Below are positions 48,140-64,000 of a stretch of DNA of 64,000 bases, piece by piece. The first letter of the stretch is position 1. Every line of letters starts with the position of its first letter. This stretch comes from a virus. Both the position numbers and the translations under genes were made by a program. Where the stretch lies: IMG/VR virus record IMGVR_UViG_3300031951_009873, positions 16,475-80,474 of that record; one strand, written 5' to 3'. Under the pieces are notes generated by a model that saw nothing but the letters and a program-made list of their open reading frames with translations, searched no databases and was not told the DNA's origin.

Positions 48140-49627
48140 ATGACAACCCCATATAGTAATCGACCAAAAATTACACAAATTGACATAAGCAATGGGTATG
48201 TCACCAGATATTTTGTACGCAATGTTTCGACGAGAATGGTGACCGAAATAGACAAAAAGCAATATGAGGCATTCAAGAATAACGTATTGTATGAAAAGTT
48301 AGAATTACAATGGAATATCTCTGGGTTTGCAAACGATATAGTATCAACGGACAATAAAATTATTTATGGTACTAAGCATAAGAACTCAGTAATCATAGAA
48401 TTTTATAACAGAAAGTTACCAGGACTGTCCAGACTATTATCAAATCCGTTAGAATATTTTCAAGGTGTTACTAATACTCCGGTTGTTCCTCCTATAGAAA
48501 CAAAATATAACGAAGACGAAATTGGTAGAGCTGTCGAACCATTTGTTGAACCCACAAGAGAAATTCGTGAGTATTCGGCGGATTTTGAGTTGAAATTTAC
48601 ATATCTGTCAAGTGGCTCATCATTAACACAACGTCCAGATGCAGTATCATTAGATTATAAGACAACCTATACATTAGGTCCAATTGCTATATCATCTGGT
48701 AGTGATGGATTGTTTGAACGGGTATGGAAAGTATGGGGCGAAGAAGATGCACTTACAGGAACACATAGTGTCTGGTACGCTATTGAAAGTGCATCAAGTT
48801 GGTCATCGGACTCCGCATCATTGTTCACATACACGGGAACTTCGAGTATAGAACTTGATGCTGCGTTTGACCAAAGTGGTAGATTGTATGTGGTGACGCA
48901 AAGATATACGGGAAGTGCGTCAGAAGTGTGGCTATACTTCTATAACCCACTCGAAACTGGCTTCGTATTTAATAATTTAGGATCAGGAAGAACTCCACGT
49001 ATGTCGCTTGATAACTGGAGAGATACGACTGATTCAGATGTATTGGTGTTTTATGTAGATGATACTCAAAATAAAATTAAATATCGGGCACAAAAAGATA
49101 GATTTACCGCCTCCTACGATACACCGATTAATACAACAGAAAATACTTATATAGAAAAGGTAGGATTCGGTGCGGATAACAGATATCGGGTAACATATGT
49201 AGAACGTAATACTAGTACAGGCAAATATGAAATAAAACAATTGGCTACTTTACTATATCCGTTCCCGATGACCACCGAAGCATATATGTTAACAGGTAGT
49301 TTCTTAAGTATGTCACTTATTGACACGCTCATAACTACCAGTATCGATACAGAAGCGTATACCTTAACCGGTAGTTTCCTAAGTATGTCAATTATCGATA
49401 CAGTGATAACTCCTAGTATCGATACAGAAGCATATATCTTAACCGGTAGTTTCTTAAGTATGTCACTTACCACGCCAGTGATAACGGTTAGTATCGATAC
49501 AGAAGCATATATCTTAACCGGTAGTTTCCTAAGTATGTCAGCTATAGATATTTTAGTTACTAGAAGCCTAGATGAAGCATATATGCTAACCGGTAGTTTC
49601 TTAAGTGCATCAATAATAACAGTATAA
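48140..49627 (+). CDS. Fibre or appendage protein with C-terminal tandem repeats
   Basis: 495 residues. The N-terminal 110 (SNRPKITQIDISNGYVTRYF) may attach to the baseplate. Residues 150-370 are beta-rich with repeated sugar-binding-like features (EARVWKVWGEEDA-like segment, LDAAFDQSGRLYVVTQRY). The last about 115 residues are five copies of a 25-residue unit, EAY(M/I/T)LTGSFLSMS plus variable I/T/D-rich spacer. A host-contact fibre is likely. Confidence 0.6.
   Translation: MTTPYSNRPKITQIDISNGYVTRYFVRNVSTRMVTEIDKKQYEAFKNNVLYEKLELQWNISGFANDIVSTDNKIIYGTKHKNSVIIEFYNRKLPGLSRLLSNPLEYFQGVTNTPVVPPIETKYNEDEIGRAVEPFVEPTREIREYSADFELKFTYLSSGSSLTQRPDAVSLDYKTTYTLGPIAISSGSDGLFERVWKVWGEEDALTGTHSVWYAIESASSWSSDSASLFTYTGTSSIELDAAFDQSGRLYVVTQRYTGSASEVWLYFYNPLETGFVFNNLGSGRTPRMSLDNWRDTTDSDVLVFYVDDTQNKIKYRAQKDRFTASYDTPINTTENTYIEKVGFGADNRYRVTYVERNTSTGKYEIKQLATLLYPFPMTTEAYMLTGSFLSMSLIDTLITTSIDTEAYTLTGSFLSMSIIDTVITPSIDTEAYILTGSFLSMSLTTPVITVSIDTEAYILTGSFLSMSAIDILVTRSLDEAYMLTGSFLSASIITV
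49277..49624 (+). repeat. Five tandem 75-base coding repeats
   Basis: Units start at 49277, 49352, 49427, 49502 and 49574: four steps of 75, 75, 75 and 72 bases. Each encodes EAYxLTGSFLSMS followed by about 12 variable residues; the DNA core GGTAGTTTC(C/T)TAAGTATGTCA is nearly identical in the first four units. The final unit is shorter and ends LSASIITV. Confidence 0.92.
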
Positions 49628-57377: not shown

Positions 57378-59228
57378 ATGCAATTAGAATCAAAGATATT
57401 ATCGGAAATCACAACGTTTATGAAATATGCGAAGTATCTTCCAAAGAAGCAACGTCGAGAAACATGGAAAGAACTCGTTGATAGAAATAAAGCAATGCAC
57501 TTAGAGAAGTTCCCTAAGCTTGAAAAGGAAATTGAAGATGCGTATAAATTTGTCTACGATAAGAAGATACTTCCTTCCATGCGCAGTTTGCAGTTTGCTG
57601 GGAAACCAATTAACATTAATAACGCTCGTTTGTATAATTGCTGCTTCCTACCTATTGATCACACTGACGCATTCTCAGAAGTCATGTTCTTGTTGCTCTC
57701 AGGAACAGGGGTCGGATATTCCGTACAAAAGTATCATGTAGAAAAGTTACCAGAAATCACCAAGCCCACAAAGTCACGCCGTTACTTGGTCGGTGATAGT
57801 ATTGAAGGTTGGGCAGATGCAGTGAAGGTGATGATTACTGCATACATGAAGGGTAAGGCTCTTCCAATTTATGATTTCAGCGATGTTCGTCCAAAGGGCG
57901 CATTACTCTTGACCTCTGGTGGTAAGGCACCTGGTCCAGAACCGCTCAAGGATTGCTTACACAATATCCAAAAGATTTTTGACCGTAAGCAAAACGGTGA
58001 AAAGCTCAGTACCCTCGAAGTACACGATATGTTGTGCTTTATCGCTGATGCAGTTCTTTCTGGTGGTATTCGTCGTTCGGCAATGATTTCGTTGTTTGAT
58101 TTGGACGATGATGATATGTTGACCTGTAAGTTCGGCAACTGGTGGGAAACTGCCCCACAACGCGGTCGCTCAAACAACAGTGCGGTTATTGTTCGTCACA
58201 AGATTGAGAAAGAAGTATTCTTGGACCTCTGGAAGAAGATTGAAATGTCTGGTTCTGGTGAACCTGGCTTCTTCTTTACGAATGACCCAAATTGGGGATT
58301 AAATCCTTGTGCAGAAATTTCACTTCGTCCGTTCCAATTCTGTAACTTGACTACCATCAATGCTGGTGATATCAAGGACCAAGACGATTTCAACGCACGT
58401 GCGAAGGCAGCAGCATTTATCGGCACACTACAAGCAAGTTATACAGATTTTCATTATTTGAGAGACATATGGAAGAGAACAACAGAGAAGGAAGCACTCA
58501 TCGGAGTGTCGATGACGGGTATAGCTTCTGGCACCGTCCTGAATTTAGATATGAAAGAAGCAGCGAACGTGGTAAAGGAGGAGAATGCACGTGTGGCGGA
58601 AGTGATTGGAACCAACAAGGCTGCAAGAACCACAACTGTCAAGCCAGAAGGCACCTCGTCACTAGTATTAGGAACTTCCTCTGGCATTCACGCTTGGCAT
58701 AATGACTTCTATGTTCGTCGTGTCCGTGTTGGTAAGAACGAAAGTATCTATCAATACTTGATTGACAACCATCCAGAAATCGTGGAAGATGAATTCTTCA
58801 AGCCAAAGCAACAAGCAGTTATCTCTGTTCCACAAAAGGCTCCGAAGGGCGCAATCACTCGTCAAGAATCTGCACTCGACTTACTCGGTCGTACCAGTAA
58901 GGTCTGGAAGGAATGGGTAAAGGCTGGTCACCGTAAGGGCGAAAACAAGAATAATGTATCCGTGACTGTCACCATCAAGCCAGATGAATGGGTTGGTGTT
59001 GGGGAATGGATGTGGAACAATCGTGAAAACTTTACAGCATTGAGTGTGCTACCTTTCAGCGACCACAGCTACATGCAAGCACCGTTCGAAGATATCGACG
59101 AAGCACAATACAACGAAATGGTTGGTCACTTACATAAGATTGACTTGACCAAGGTAGTTGAAGTCGAAGATAATACCGACCTCGCAGGTGAAGTTGCTTG
59201 TGGTGGCGGTGGGTGCGAGGTCCAATAA
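57378..59228 (+). CDS. nrdJ: Class II (B12-dependent) ribonucleotide reductase, monomeric type
   Basis: 616 residues. Cys88/89 in RLYNCCFLP and Cys322 in FCN form the expected reducible pair; Cys311 in LNPCAEI is the thiyl-radical site. The C-terminal shuttle is Cys608 and Cys613 (CGGGGC), the same 5-residue spacing as in Lactobacillus leichmannii RTPR. GTGVGYSVQ and SGGIRRSAM are also typical. It makes deoxynucleoside phosphates using adenosylcobalamin, so it needs B12 from the host but no oxygen or second subunit. Thioredoxin genes follow at once and can reduce it. Confidence 0.9.
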   Translation: MQLESKILSEITTFMKYAKYLPKKQRRETWKELVDRNKAMHLEKFPKLEKEIEDAYKFVYDKKILPSMRSLQFAGKPININNARLYNCCFLPIDHTDAFSEVMFLLLSGTGVGYSVQKYHVEKLPEITKPTKSRRYLVGDSIEGWADAVKVMITAYMKGKALPIYDFSDVRPKGALLLTSGGKAPGPEPLKDCLHNIQKIFDRKQNGEKLSTLEVHDMLCFIADAVLSGGIRRSAMISLFDLDDDDMLTCKFGNWWETAPQRGRSNNSAVIVRHKIEKEVFLDLWKKIEMSGSGEPGFFFTNDPNWGLNPCAEISLRPFQFCNLTTINAGDIKDQDDFNARAKAAAFIGTLQASYTDFHYLRDIWKRTTEKEALIGVSMTGIASGTVLNLDMKEAANVVKEENARVAEVIGTNKAARTTTVKPEGTSSLVLGTSSGIHAWHNDFYVRRVRVGKNESIYQYLIDNHPEIVEDEFFKPKQQAVISVPQKAPKGAITRQESALDLLGRTSKVWKEWVKAGHRKGENKNNVSVTVTIKPDEWVGVGEWMWNNRENFTALSVLPFSDHSYMQAPFEDIDEAQYNEMVGHLHKIDLTKVVEVEDNTDLAGEVACGGGGCEVQ

Positions 59229-59533
59229 TGCAGGAACTCACGTTACAAGAATTTGAAGAAAAGTTGGCATCCAAGGAACCCTTTGTTGTAGATTTCTGGG
59301 CTCCTTGGTGCCCAACCTGCATCGAAATGTTACCTATGGTAGAAGAGATTGCTGGTGAGTCGGATATCCCATTCTATAAGGTGAATGTGGATGAACAACC
59401 AGAGCTGAAAGAAAAGAATCGTATTAAGGCAATTCCGATGTTGATGTTCTACAAGGAAGGTCGAACACGGGAATTCTTATATGGGAAAAACGAGAAGTCT
59501 AAGATTGAACAGAGGTTGAATCGTATTAAGTGA
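59228..59533 (+). CDS. Thioredoxin
   Basis: About 101 residues. Active site FWAPWCPTC and the cis-Pro segment AIPMLMFYKEG are in place. Start codon overlaps the reductase stop (TAATG), so it is coupled to it and is the likely reductant for the C-terminal CGGGGC of the reductase. Confidence 0.9.
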   Translation: MQELTLQEFEEKLASKEPFVVDFWAPWCPTCIEMLPMVEEIAGESDIPFYKVNVDEQPELKEKNRIKAIPMLMFYKEGRTREFLYGKNEKSKIEQRLNRIK

Positions 59534-60810: not shown

Positions 60811-61092
60811 ATGGTTTTTATTTGGGTATTTATATTTCAAGTATTATTCAATATTTTTAAAGTATTAGAAATAAGGTATACGCTACATCACCAAGTACGC
60901 CAGCTATTGATGAATTCAATCTGGATAAACTTAGTGGCACTGGCGTCTACCTTTTATTCTATTGATGCCCTCTTGAAAGGGAACTTCACAGTGATTATAT
61001 TCTATATAGCAGGAAGTGTGGTAGGAAAGTATATTGGTATGAAGATTGATGTAAACGACAGAGGTAAGCATGTATCAAGCGATTTATATTGA
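60811..61092 (+). CDS. Small membrane protein, DUF5698-like
   Basis: 93 residues with three hydrophobic segments: about 1-20, 35-50 and 58-75. FKVLEIRYTLHHQVRQLLMN and GSVVGKYIGMKID resemble the N-terminal membrane domain of UPF0316/DUF2179 proteins, a weak match. Function unknown. It overlaps the DNA polymerase start by 23 bases, so the two are translated together. Confidence 0.5.
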   Translation: MVFIWVFIFQVLFNIFKVLEIRYTLHHQVRQLLMNSIWINLVALASTFYSIDALLKGNFTVIIFYIAGSVVGKYIGMKIDVNDRGKHVSSDLY

Positions 61093-63583
61093 GCGAGGGG
61101 AAGGCTTCGGAAACGATACGGTACATCTATGGGATGACCAGATGGGATATAAGACTGTCCCGTATCGTAACTTTGACTATGCCTATAAGCCAGACCGTAG
61201 TGGTAACTTTATCAGTATGACTGGTGTGAAGTTGGCAAAGGTCAAGCGCTATAAGCGAGATGACCCAAATCTATTCGAGAGCGACCTTCCTCCAGAGACT
61301 CGCGTTCTGACTGACCTATATCTCAATGAGGACAATGTTTCCCAAGGGCATAAGACGATGTTCTTTGACATCGAAGTGTCTATGGAAAACGGTGTGCCGA
61401 ATATTGAGAATCCCAACAACGAGATTACATCTATCGCCGTTTATGATTCGGTGACCCAAGAGTATTCCGTGTTGGTATTGGATAAGGCAGGATATCAACC
61501 CAGCCGTGAATATGATAATGTCAAGGTCGTGATGTATACTTCTGAAACCGATTTGTTATATGGGTTCTTGGACCTGTATGAGCAGATTGGTCCGACGATT
61601 ATTACGGGTTGGAATACTGATAATTTTGATATTCCCTATCTCTATAATCGTATCAAGCAGCAGTGTGGACCAAACACTGCTGGTCGCTTGAGTCCGATTG
61701 GAAAAATTAAGTATTCTCAATTCCGAGGAAGATATCAGATTGCTGGTGTATCTTCTCTTGACTATTTGACCTTATATAAAAAGTTTACCTATACCCAACA
61801 GCCCAACTATCGGCTGGATACGATTGGTCGATTGGAAGTCAATATGGGTAAGGTTGAATATGAAGGGTCATTAGATGAATTGTTTCGTACTGACTTGGAA
61901 AAGTTTATTGAATACAATCTTCAAGACGTTCGTATCATTGTGGAGATGGACAAGAAGCTCAAGCTGATTGAGTTGGTTCGTGGTATCTGTCATTTGGGTC
62001 ACGTGTCATACGAAGATTATTGGTTCAGTTCAAAGTTCTTGGAAGGAACCATCGTAACCTATCTTCACCGTAAGGGTATTATCGTGACCAACAAACCAGC
62101 TGGCGGTCGTGAGATGATGGACAATAAGATGGAGAATGATGATGAAGGATTCGCTGGTGCCTTCGTCAAGGAACCTATACCTGGGTTGTATGAGTGGGTG
62201 TATTCTCTCGACTTACAATCGCTGTATCCGTCTATCATTATGAGTCTCAACATTAGTCCAGAAACCAAGATTGGATTCGTGACCAACTGGAATGTAGACA
62301 AGCATGTTAACGAAGAGTTAACCGAATATCTCATTCGTGGAACGACTGACGAGCAGGTTGTCAGATTGAGCCGTGAGGCATTCTTGAAGTATATGAAACT
62401 CGAAAGTTTGATGATTAGTTCGAACGGTGTCTTGTATAATGGAAAGGTCGTGGGGATTATTCCAGAAGTTCTTGACCAATGGTTCAAGGAGCGTGTCGAA
62501 TATAAGAACTTGATGAAGAAGTATAAGAATGAAGGGAACGTAGAGCAGGCCGAATACTATGACAGACGCCAACACATTCAGAAAATCTTCTTGAATTCTC
62601 TGTATGGTGTGCTTGGTCTTCCCATCTTCCGTTTCTTTGATTTGGATAATGCTCTTGCCGTAACCGCATCTGGTCAAGATGTGATTAAGAAGTCTGCGGC
62701 ATTTGCAAACAATCTCTATCAACACAAGCTACAAACCCAAGAAGACTACTGTACCTATATTGACACAGACTCTTTGTACTTCTCTGCGACTCCGCTGGGG
62801 AATGGAAAAGAATTCACTATCAAGTTGGCTCGTGCGATGGAAAAGAAGTTGAACGAATATTATGATTTGATGGCAAAGGATTTGTTCTTCTGTGACAAGC
62901 ATCGGTTATATATCAAGGGTGAATCGGTGGCAGAGACTGCGGTGTGGATTGCCAAGAAGCGATACACGATGAATGTGGTATACGATTTGGAATCGAACCT
63001 TGATGTCGCAAACAAGATGAAGGTCAAAGGATTGGATGTTGTTCGTTCATCATTCCCACCAGCCTTCCGTGACTTTATGAATAAGATGATGAAGGATATC
63101 TTGAATAAGGCAACAAAGGAAGATATTGACCAGAAGGTATTAGGGTTCCGTGATTCGATGAATAGTATGTCGTATCTGGAAGTCGCCCGAAACACGGCGG
63201 TCAAGAATATCTCTGAATATGATTTGAGAACTGGTAAGCTCAACGACTTCCGTAAAGGAACTCCAGCCCACGTAAAGGCGGCAATCACCTATAATTCGTT
63301 GTTGAAACATTTCAAGATTGAGAATAAGTATGAACGGATTTCTGATGGGGAAAAGGTCAAATGGTTGTATCTAAAGCAGAATCCGTGGAATCTAGAAACT
63401 GTGGCTGTCAAGGGATACAATGACCCCCAAGAAATCGTTGAACTAGTAAATACTTATATTGACTATAATGCATTATTTGAGAACGAACTGCAGAAGAAAC
63501 TGGAAGATTTTTATTCGGCACTAAAATGGGGTAATATACCTACCGAAGTTAATCAGAATGCTCAGGAATGGTTTAGTTTTTGA
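61070..63583 (+). CDS. 43: DNA polymerase, family B (gp43-like)
   Basis: 837 residues, near T4 gp43 (898). Exonuclease: Exo I FFDIEV (98-103), Exo II NTDNFDIPYL (182-191), Exo III YNLQDV (282-287). Polymerase: motif A SLDLQSLYPSII (Asp381), motif B KIFLNSLYG (505-513), motif C YIDTDSL (563-569). The replicative enzyme with proofreading. No intein or split is seen. It starts inside the membrane-protein gene and shares its promoter. Confidence 0.95.
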   Translation: MYQAIYIERGEGFGNDTVHLWDDQMGYKTVPYRNFDYAYKPDRSGNFISMTGVKLAKVKRYKRDDPNLFESDLPPETRVLTDLYLNEDNVSQGHKTMFFDIEVSMENGVPNIENPNNEITSIAVYDSVTQEYSVLVLDKAGYQPSREYDNVKVVMYTSETDLLYGFLDLYEQIGPTIITGWNTDNFDIPYLYNRIKQQCGPNTAGRLSPIGKIKYSQFRGRYQIAGVSSLDYLTLYKKFTYTQQPNYRLDTIGRLEVNMGKVEYEGSLDELFRTDLEKFIEYNLQDVRIIVEMDKKLKLIELVRGICHLGHVSYEDYWFSSKFLEGTIVTYLHRKGIIVTNKPAGGREMMDNKMENDDEGFAGAFVKEPIPGLYEWVYSLDLQSLYPSIIMSLNISPETKIGFVTNWNVDKHVNEELTEYLIRGTTDEQVVRLSREAFLKYMKLESLMISSNGVLYNGKVVGIIPEVLDQWFKERVEYKNLMKKYKNEGNVEQAEYYDRRQHIQKIFLNSLYGVLGLPIFRFFDLDNALAVTASGQDVIKKSAAFANNLYQHKLQTQEDYCTYIDTDSLYFSATPLGNGKEFTIKLARAMEKKLNEYYDLMAKDLFFCDKHRLYIKGESVAETAVWIAKKRYTMNVVYDLESNLDVANKMKVKGLDVVRSSFPPAFRDFMNKMMKDILNKATKEDIDQKVLGFRDSMNSMSYLEVARNTAVKNISEYDLRTGKLNDFRKGTPAHVKAAITYNSLLKHFKIENKYERISDGEKVKWLYLKQNPWNLETVAVKGYNDPQEIVELVNTYIDYNALFENELQKKLEDFYSALKWGNIPTEVNQNAQEWFSF

Positions 63584-63606
63584 TATTTATTTATTCACCC
63601 CTAGCG
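63582..63606 (+). promoter_or_regulatory. GATATTTAT box with ACCCCTAGCG element
   Basis: GATATTTAT (63582-63590) overlaps the polymerase stop; ACCCCTAGCG (63597-63606) follows. Third example of this pairing in the right-hand region. Confidence 0.4.
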
Positions 63607-63607
63607 T

Positions 63608-63631
63608 CGAGCCACCCACAGACGGGGCTCG
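63608..63631 (+). other. 6-bp hairpin in the leader of the last gene
   Basis: CGAGCC (63608-63613) can pair with GGCTCG (63626-63631), loop 12, with possible extra C-C/G-G pairs inside. No T-run follows, so it is more likely a leader structure of the next gene than a terminator. Confidence 0.45.
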
Positions 63632-63648
63632 GTTATAGAGACTCTCCT

Positions 63649-64000
63649 ATGAGAAAATTGTTGGAAATTCTTTTAGCAACTGCGATGTTGTCTACCTCCG
63701 CTTATGCGCAAATCACCAGCGGAATCCTTCGTGGTACTGTTAAAGATGTTACAGGTAGTACAATTGAAAATGCAAATGTTGCTGTGGTCTTTGTTCCAAC
63801 CAATCAACGAATTGTTACGAAAACGACAACAGAAGGTCGGTTTACATTATCCAACTTAAAACCAGGTGGTCCATATACCGTATCGGTGACCGCACTGGGG
63901 TTCCGTCCAAAGTCCTCTGATAATTTAACGGTTCGTTTAGGTGAAGCAACAAGCACAGATATTGAGATGGAAAAGATTGTTGTAGTATTAAATCAAGTAT
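63649..64000 (+). CDS. Secreted carboxypeptidase-regulatory / TonB-receptor-like protein, 3' partial
   Basis: 117 codons are visible before the window ends. MRKLLEILLATAMLSTSAYA is a clear Sec signal peptide with cleavage expected after AYA. Then GILRGTVKDVTG, TTTEGRFTLSNLKPGGPYTV and VTALGFRPKS form a carboxypeptidase-regulatory-like (CarboxypepD_reg) domain, the usual N-terminal extension of SusC-like or related TonB-dependent receptors. In a phage this is unexpected; it may be a phage-made surface protein or an acquired host gene. The rest of the gene decides which. Confidence 0.72.
   Translation, partial: MRKLLEILLATAMLSTSAYAQITSGILRGTVKDVTGSTIENANVAVVFVPTNQRIVTKTTTEGRFTLSNLKPGGPYTVSVTALGFRPKSSDNLTVRLGEATSTDIEMEKIVVVLNQV

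Follow-up and report, generated by a model that had tools for sequence, protein, structure and literature searches.

An Oar-like TonB-dependent receptor gene in T4-like phages, its hairpin leader and its possible role in ligand uptake

The receptor gene and its family

The stretch of DNA analysed here, referred to as the window, comprises 64,000 bases (G000:C1:16475-80474) of an 80,474-base virus record. An ATG-started open reading frame begins at position 63649 of the forward strand and continues without a stop codon up to base 64000, giving 117 codons; as the contig also ends there, the gene is truncated. The encoded protein starts with MRKLLEILLATAMLSTSAYA followed by QITSG, which by inspection is a textbook Sec signal peptide, and continues with a CarboxypepD_reg domain and the first residues of a TonB-box-like motif (Table 1). 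A family-B DNA polymerase gene ends 65 bases ahead of the ATG, and the surrounding region also encodes UvsX, a DnaB-like helicase, ribonucleotide reductase and a single-strand-binding protein. These neighbors bear out the label of a T4-like replication region given in the first-pass annotation, which had also correctly recognized the signal peptide, the CarboxypepD_reg domain and the placement right behind the polymerase gene. Elsewhere in the window, at 49274-49617, a 72-75-base unit (EAYxLTGSFLSMSxID) is repeated five times in tandem within a 495-aa open reading frame of the tail-gene region. Positions 1-34800 are AT-rich (28-38% GC, with 40-42% in the replication region) and contain epimerase-like, carbamoyltransferase-like and other sugar- or surface-related open reading frames.

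Table 1. Features at and around the receptor gene (positions in the window).
Feature	Position	Strand	Basis or remark
Ribonucleotide reductase gene	57378..59228	+	One flank of the alternative insertion site (receptor gene in L170/L171)
Thioredoxin-like gene	59228..59533	+	Other flank of the alternative insertion site
Family-B DNA polymerase gene, immediately before the receptor gene	61070..63583	+	phrog_262, E 1e-185
Conserved 5' leader of the receptor gene	63592..63651	+	Scores 86.4 bits with covariance model R1
Hairpin inside the leader, 24 nt (6+2 pairs, one bulged A, 7-base loop)	63608..63631	+	Changes on both sides at 4/8 pairs
Oar-like TonB-dependent receptor gene, 5' end (117 codons)	63649..64000	+	Relatives 1045-1051 aa when complete
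Predicted Sec signal peptide, MRKLLEILLATAMLSTSAYA	63649..63708	+	Cleavage before Q21, by inspection of the sequence
CarboxypepD_reg domain, an N-terminal extension characteristic of the Oar subclass	63727..63972	+	Pfam PF13620, E 1.7e-19, residues 27-108
Start of TonB-box-like motif (LNQV)	63988..63999	+	Alignment with phage and bacterial receptors; LNQVSV in L002/L003

Searches of the truncated 117-codon piece against PHROGs and NCBIfam returned no useful family. The visible 117 aa are found in six other IMG/VR phage contigs at 88-96% identity, and a complete gene of 1045-1051 codons, followed by an ATP-dependent ligase gene, is present in L002, L003 and L007. The complete relatives exhibit the domain order PF13620 (E 9e-18 in L003), TonB-box-like motif LNQVSV, plug region and Oar-type barrel PF25183 (E 1e-39 and 4e-40 in L003 and L007; the window copy ends before the barrel). 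At the expected place of the plug, profile PF07715 gives sub-threshold matches (E 2e-4 to 6e-3), and the L-x-x-V-x-V motif aligns with that of bacterial receptors (LNQVSV, LDQVSV, LEGVQV). An AlphaFold model of the receptor (44 sequences, pLDDT 71, pTM 0.70) contains strands which, by our own count, are consistent with a 22-stranded barrel. Its closest PDB structures are FusA, YddB, FepA/PfeA and Cir (E to 5e-29), all of which are TonB-dependent receptors.

The SusC/RagA profile TIGR04056 has no match in L003, L007, L171 or L190, and no SusD lipoprotein gene lies beside the receptor, whose neighbors are polymerase, ligase, reductase and thioredoxin genes. The receptor is therefore classed as Oar-like and not as SusC, and its identity as an Oar-like TonB-dependent receptor is close to certain. 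With plug region and barrel present in the relatives which read through the gene, the first-pass description of a TonB-receptor-like outer-membrane protein holds, while its assignment to the SusC class does not. For the family, the same full-length relatives exclude a tail fiber, a short secreted protein and an assembly junction, the last of these also by the phage genes found on either side in several independent contigs.

A conserved leader and the movement of the gene between sites

Upstream of the gene, box elements of the phage had been proposed. A repeated phage box is not supported, as the upstream sequence occurs only once within the window; what precedes the start codon instead is a conserved leader containing the hairpin CGAGCC-A-CC...GG-GGCTCG. 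The leader structure was derived from six distinct sequences, among which the two-sided changes occur (Table 1). Pairing holds in 95.8% of cells, the covariation score was not reached by any shuffle, and slid registers fail. The covariance model R1 detects the leader as a single copy in L006 and in every record of the polymerase-site group that carries a receptor. It is absent from receptor-less relatives, from the regions before other phage genes and from 67 bacterial loci, and the records searched yielded no other confident match (a weak match in G008, E 0.28, was ignored). Because the model was trained on these same sequences, only this absence elsewhere counts as independent evidence. In Rfam, no family reaches its gathering score in the window and matches around the receptor gene are at chance level; a known riboswitch or leader family was therefore rejected.

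L006 retains the leader behind unrelated upstream sequence, so the conserved element does not include a promoter located further away, and we infer that the leader acts in the mRNA. In L113, whose polymerase is 88% identical, the same leader precedes a canonical receptor of 905 aa with Plug PF07715 and a PF00593 barrel. This receptor shares the post-polymerase locus, the covarying leader, the signal peptide and the CarboxypepD_reg domain with that of the window but belongs to a different family. The copies beside ribonucleotide reductase carry a different leader. The conserved leader can serve as a marker for locating further receptor cassettes. On the 3' side of the receptor, a promoter-like sequence with an inverted repeat (L003:13162-13202, TTGACA...GGGGTGTATGATATATTTCATACATCCCC) is kept in L105, L113, L114 and L170.

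Receptor genes occupy three sites, namely between polymerase and ligase, between ribonucleotide reductase and thioredoxin, and between exonuclease and tmRNA. Phage genes lie on both flanks in L002, L003 and L007, and a complete open gene is likewise located between phage genes in L171; judged by its sequence context, the receptor is a phage gene and not contamination. Relatives with a polymerase of approximately 70% identity have no receptor at the polymerase site, and four of these records contain a copy of 74% identity flanked by the ribonucleotide reductase and thioredoxin genes (L170/L171). A DUF6065 protein (L108:8533-9795; PF19541, E 2e-70) fills the post-polymerase slot in relatives without a receptor there. 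The copy at the third site, in L006, is 97% identical and has one in-frame TAG at codon 176. The dN/dS values, 0.05-0.11 across clade A (the window's group) and 0.10-0.17 for the window's 117 codons, are low, indicating purifying selection of the kind a functional protein would show.

Nucleotide identity between L002 and L003 amounts to 74-90% over most of the polymerase gene (approximately 83%), rises to approximately 95% from near the end of that gene to the receptor stop codon and drops to 52-60% (approximately 55%) just beyond. In the same pair, dS is 1.23 for the polymerase and 0.28 for the receptor; between the window and L003, the values are 1.26 and 0.14, with the receptor value covering 117 codons. 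We read this pattern as recombination which moves leader and gene together as a cassette.

Origin, a second phage group and the host

Bacteroidota Oar-like receptors (PF25183 and PF13620) have the same domain order and length as the phage receptor and are approximately 40-44% identical to it over the full length. The nearest bacterial sequences found reach 42-44% for the window's group, and neither 395 Bacteroidota genomes nor a GTDB scan contained a donor closer than approximately 44%. A recent host donor was therefore rejected, and the distance points to an old phage lineage in place of a recent pick-up, which corrects the earlier suggestion of a host-derived gene. The genome-by-genome donor search covered Bacteroidota, and the true donor may belong to a phylum outside it. 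In INPHARED, the sole match is a 6-kb unannotated fecal fragment at 29%.

Five contigs of up to 195 kb (L187 and L189-L192) make up a second group of large phages which also encode Oar-like receptors. These receptors are 69-94% identical to one another and approximately 37% identical to those of the window's group, and their nearest bacterial sequence found is 59% identical. In a tree of 65 sequences, the window-group receptors form a distinct clade on a long stem and the phage label requires two changes, with the caveat of long branches; these sequences indicate that the second group acquired its receptor independently. A further, canonical TonB-dependent receptor (Plug and PF00593) is located at L230:6251-8794, in the same phage record as L189, so that two receptor types occur together in a single phage of the second group.

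Shine-Dalgarno motifs precede approximately 50% of genes against a background of 8% (window 36000-64000 and relatives L003, L105 and L114), and the window's group has promoter sequences of the TTGACA-17-TATATT type, including an exact TTGACA. Neither the second phage group nor the Bacteroidota loci show such signals. The window's group thus probably does not infect Bacteroidota, which the second group plausibly does, even though the nearest receptors to the window's group were found in Bacteroidota despite its non-Bacteroidota-like translation and promoter signals. Directly 3' of the receptor in L006 lies a permuted (two-piece) tmRNA (L006:13129-13449; RF04321, 113.8 bits, tag GTYNTPLALAA), a clue to a non-Bacteroidota host for this phage. 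Among cultured phages, the closest is Microcystis phage Mel-JY01 (polymerase 44%), a relationship too remote to serve for host assignment.

Possible roles in the infected cell

The plug is the most conserved part of the phage receptor, with a plug/strand divergence of 0.23 in the window's group, whereas the bacterial pairs have a median of 0.67 and go no lower than 0.30. Predicted extracellular loops also diverge less than strands (ratios of 0.77 and 0.81 in the two phage groups), whereas 464 bacterial pairs of similar overall identity give a median of 1.15; this comparison uses a medium-confidence model and our own loop assignment, and the bacterial pairs may mix paralogues with different ligands. 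Read on the model, such conservation of plug and loops favors a conserved ligand and a working gate, and hence TonB-driven uptake over a diversifying decoy.

On this basis, the best explanation as a whole is a selected, exchanged Oar-like receptor gene which serves TonB-driven ligand uptake in the infected cell, and we give it an even chance of being correct; the receptor function as such is a reasoned guess from sequence. The gene would be read through from the replication operon early or in the middle of infection, with the hairpin leader acting on the stability or translation of the mRNA. The product would then be exported via the host Sec/Bam machinery and inserted in the host outer membrane, where the host TonB system would engage the TonB box and open the plug. 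A search for a phage-borne TonB gene found none, so the TonB of the host must serve. The imported ligand would be one that limits phage replication, for example an iron-siderophore, a cofactor, a peptide or an oligosaccharide. As with phage auxiliary metabolic genes for nutrient acquisition, a host-type gene is kept by selection among replication genes; unlike these, it encodes a predicted outer-membrane energy-coupled receptor and not an enzyme or periplasmic binding protein.

TonB-dependent receptors are frequent phage receptors, such as FhuA for T1 and T5, and phage PA-2 encodes a porin which replaces the host receptor. The phage protein could accordingly act in superinfection exclusion or receptor replacement by displacing or competing with a host receptor, or by adsorbing rival virions without DNA entry, and the swapping of different receptor subfamilies at one locus behind one leader could represent specificity switching. 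We consider this role unlikely, though the strongest of the alternatives, as the predicted extracellular loops vary less than the strands in either phage clade, contrary to what is expected of an arms-race decoy, the plug is the most conserved part and the TonB-box-like motif is kept. Moreover, far smaller proteins would appear to suffice for exclusion in known phages.

Two further roles, both improbable and to a similar degree, derive from Myxococcus xanthus Oar, a protein that shares the CarboxypepD_reg extension and is needed to secrete the protease PopC (PMC6434023). The phage receptor could likewise be a channel exporting a phage or host protein, and clade B receptors of the second group indeed adjoin several genes which start with secretion-signal-like sequences; the clade A gene, however, is linked to no candidate substrate among its polymerase, ligase, ribonucleotide reductase and thioredoxin neighbors. 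Oar was first known by a developmental and social phenotype (PMC6434023), and the window's phage also has many sugar-modifying genes, which would suit a role in adhesion or surface remodeling, altering cell-cell contact or surface properties without transport. Such a role needs neither a strictly conserved plug nor a TonB-box-like motif. Finally, three contigs of the group (the window, L004 and L005) end inside the gene and the L006 copy has its in-frame stop, yet a passive host fragment, pseudogene or assembly junction is highly improbable given the complete open genes between phage genes in L002, L003, L007 and L171, a dN/dS of about 0.05-0.1 and the conserved leader.

Compared with its Bacteroidota homologues and Myxococcus xanthus Oar, the receptor favored here for ligand uptake is phage-encoded, has its own hairpin leader, forms a distinct long-stem clade and shows unusual conservation of plug and loops. 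Among phages, a putative SusC TonB-dependent receptor has been reported for the marine megaphages Mar_Mega_1 and LR745206 and proposed as an auxiliary gene for carbohydrate uptake, the only report on other phage TonB receptors that our literature search found (PMC9723777). Both are TonB-dependent receptor genes in phages, but the megaphage protein belongs to another subfamily (9% identity in structural alignment), and the accessible text describes neither cassette nor leader (PMC9723777). In BFVD, the sole viral model matched over its length is a SusC of an uncultured marine phage. Phage-borne TonB-dependent receptors are thus already known but barely documented, and their cassette behavior and dedicated leader are described here.

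As far as their gene content indicates, these phages probably give the infected cell a remodeled surface. More broadly, T4-like phages of several lineages could convergently carry exchangeable receptor cassettes which rewire uptake or receptor display, with one group adding its own covarying RNA leader and specificities swapped at one locus like tail-fiber tips, a generalization we hold tentatively and rate at somewhat below even odds. If uptake were confirmed, phages would equip the outer membrane of the infected cell with a new energy-coupled gate, drawn from a recurring gene family which at least two phage groups have captured independently. Outer-membrane transport would then join the functions taken over by phages during infection, and nutrient limitation and phage gene content would be connected by a testable link.
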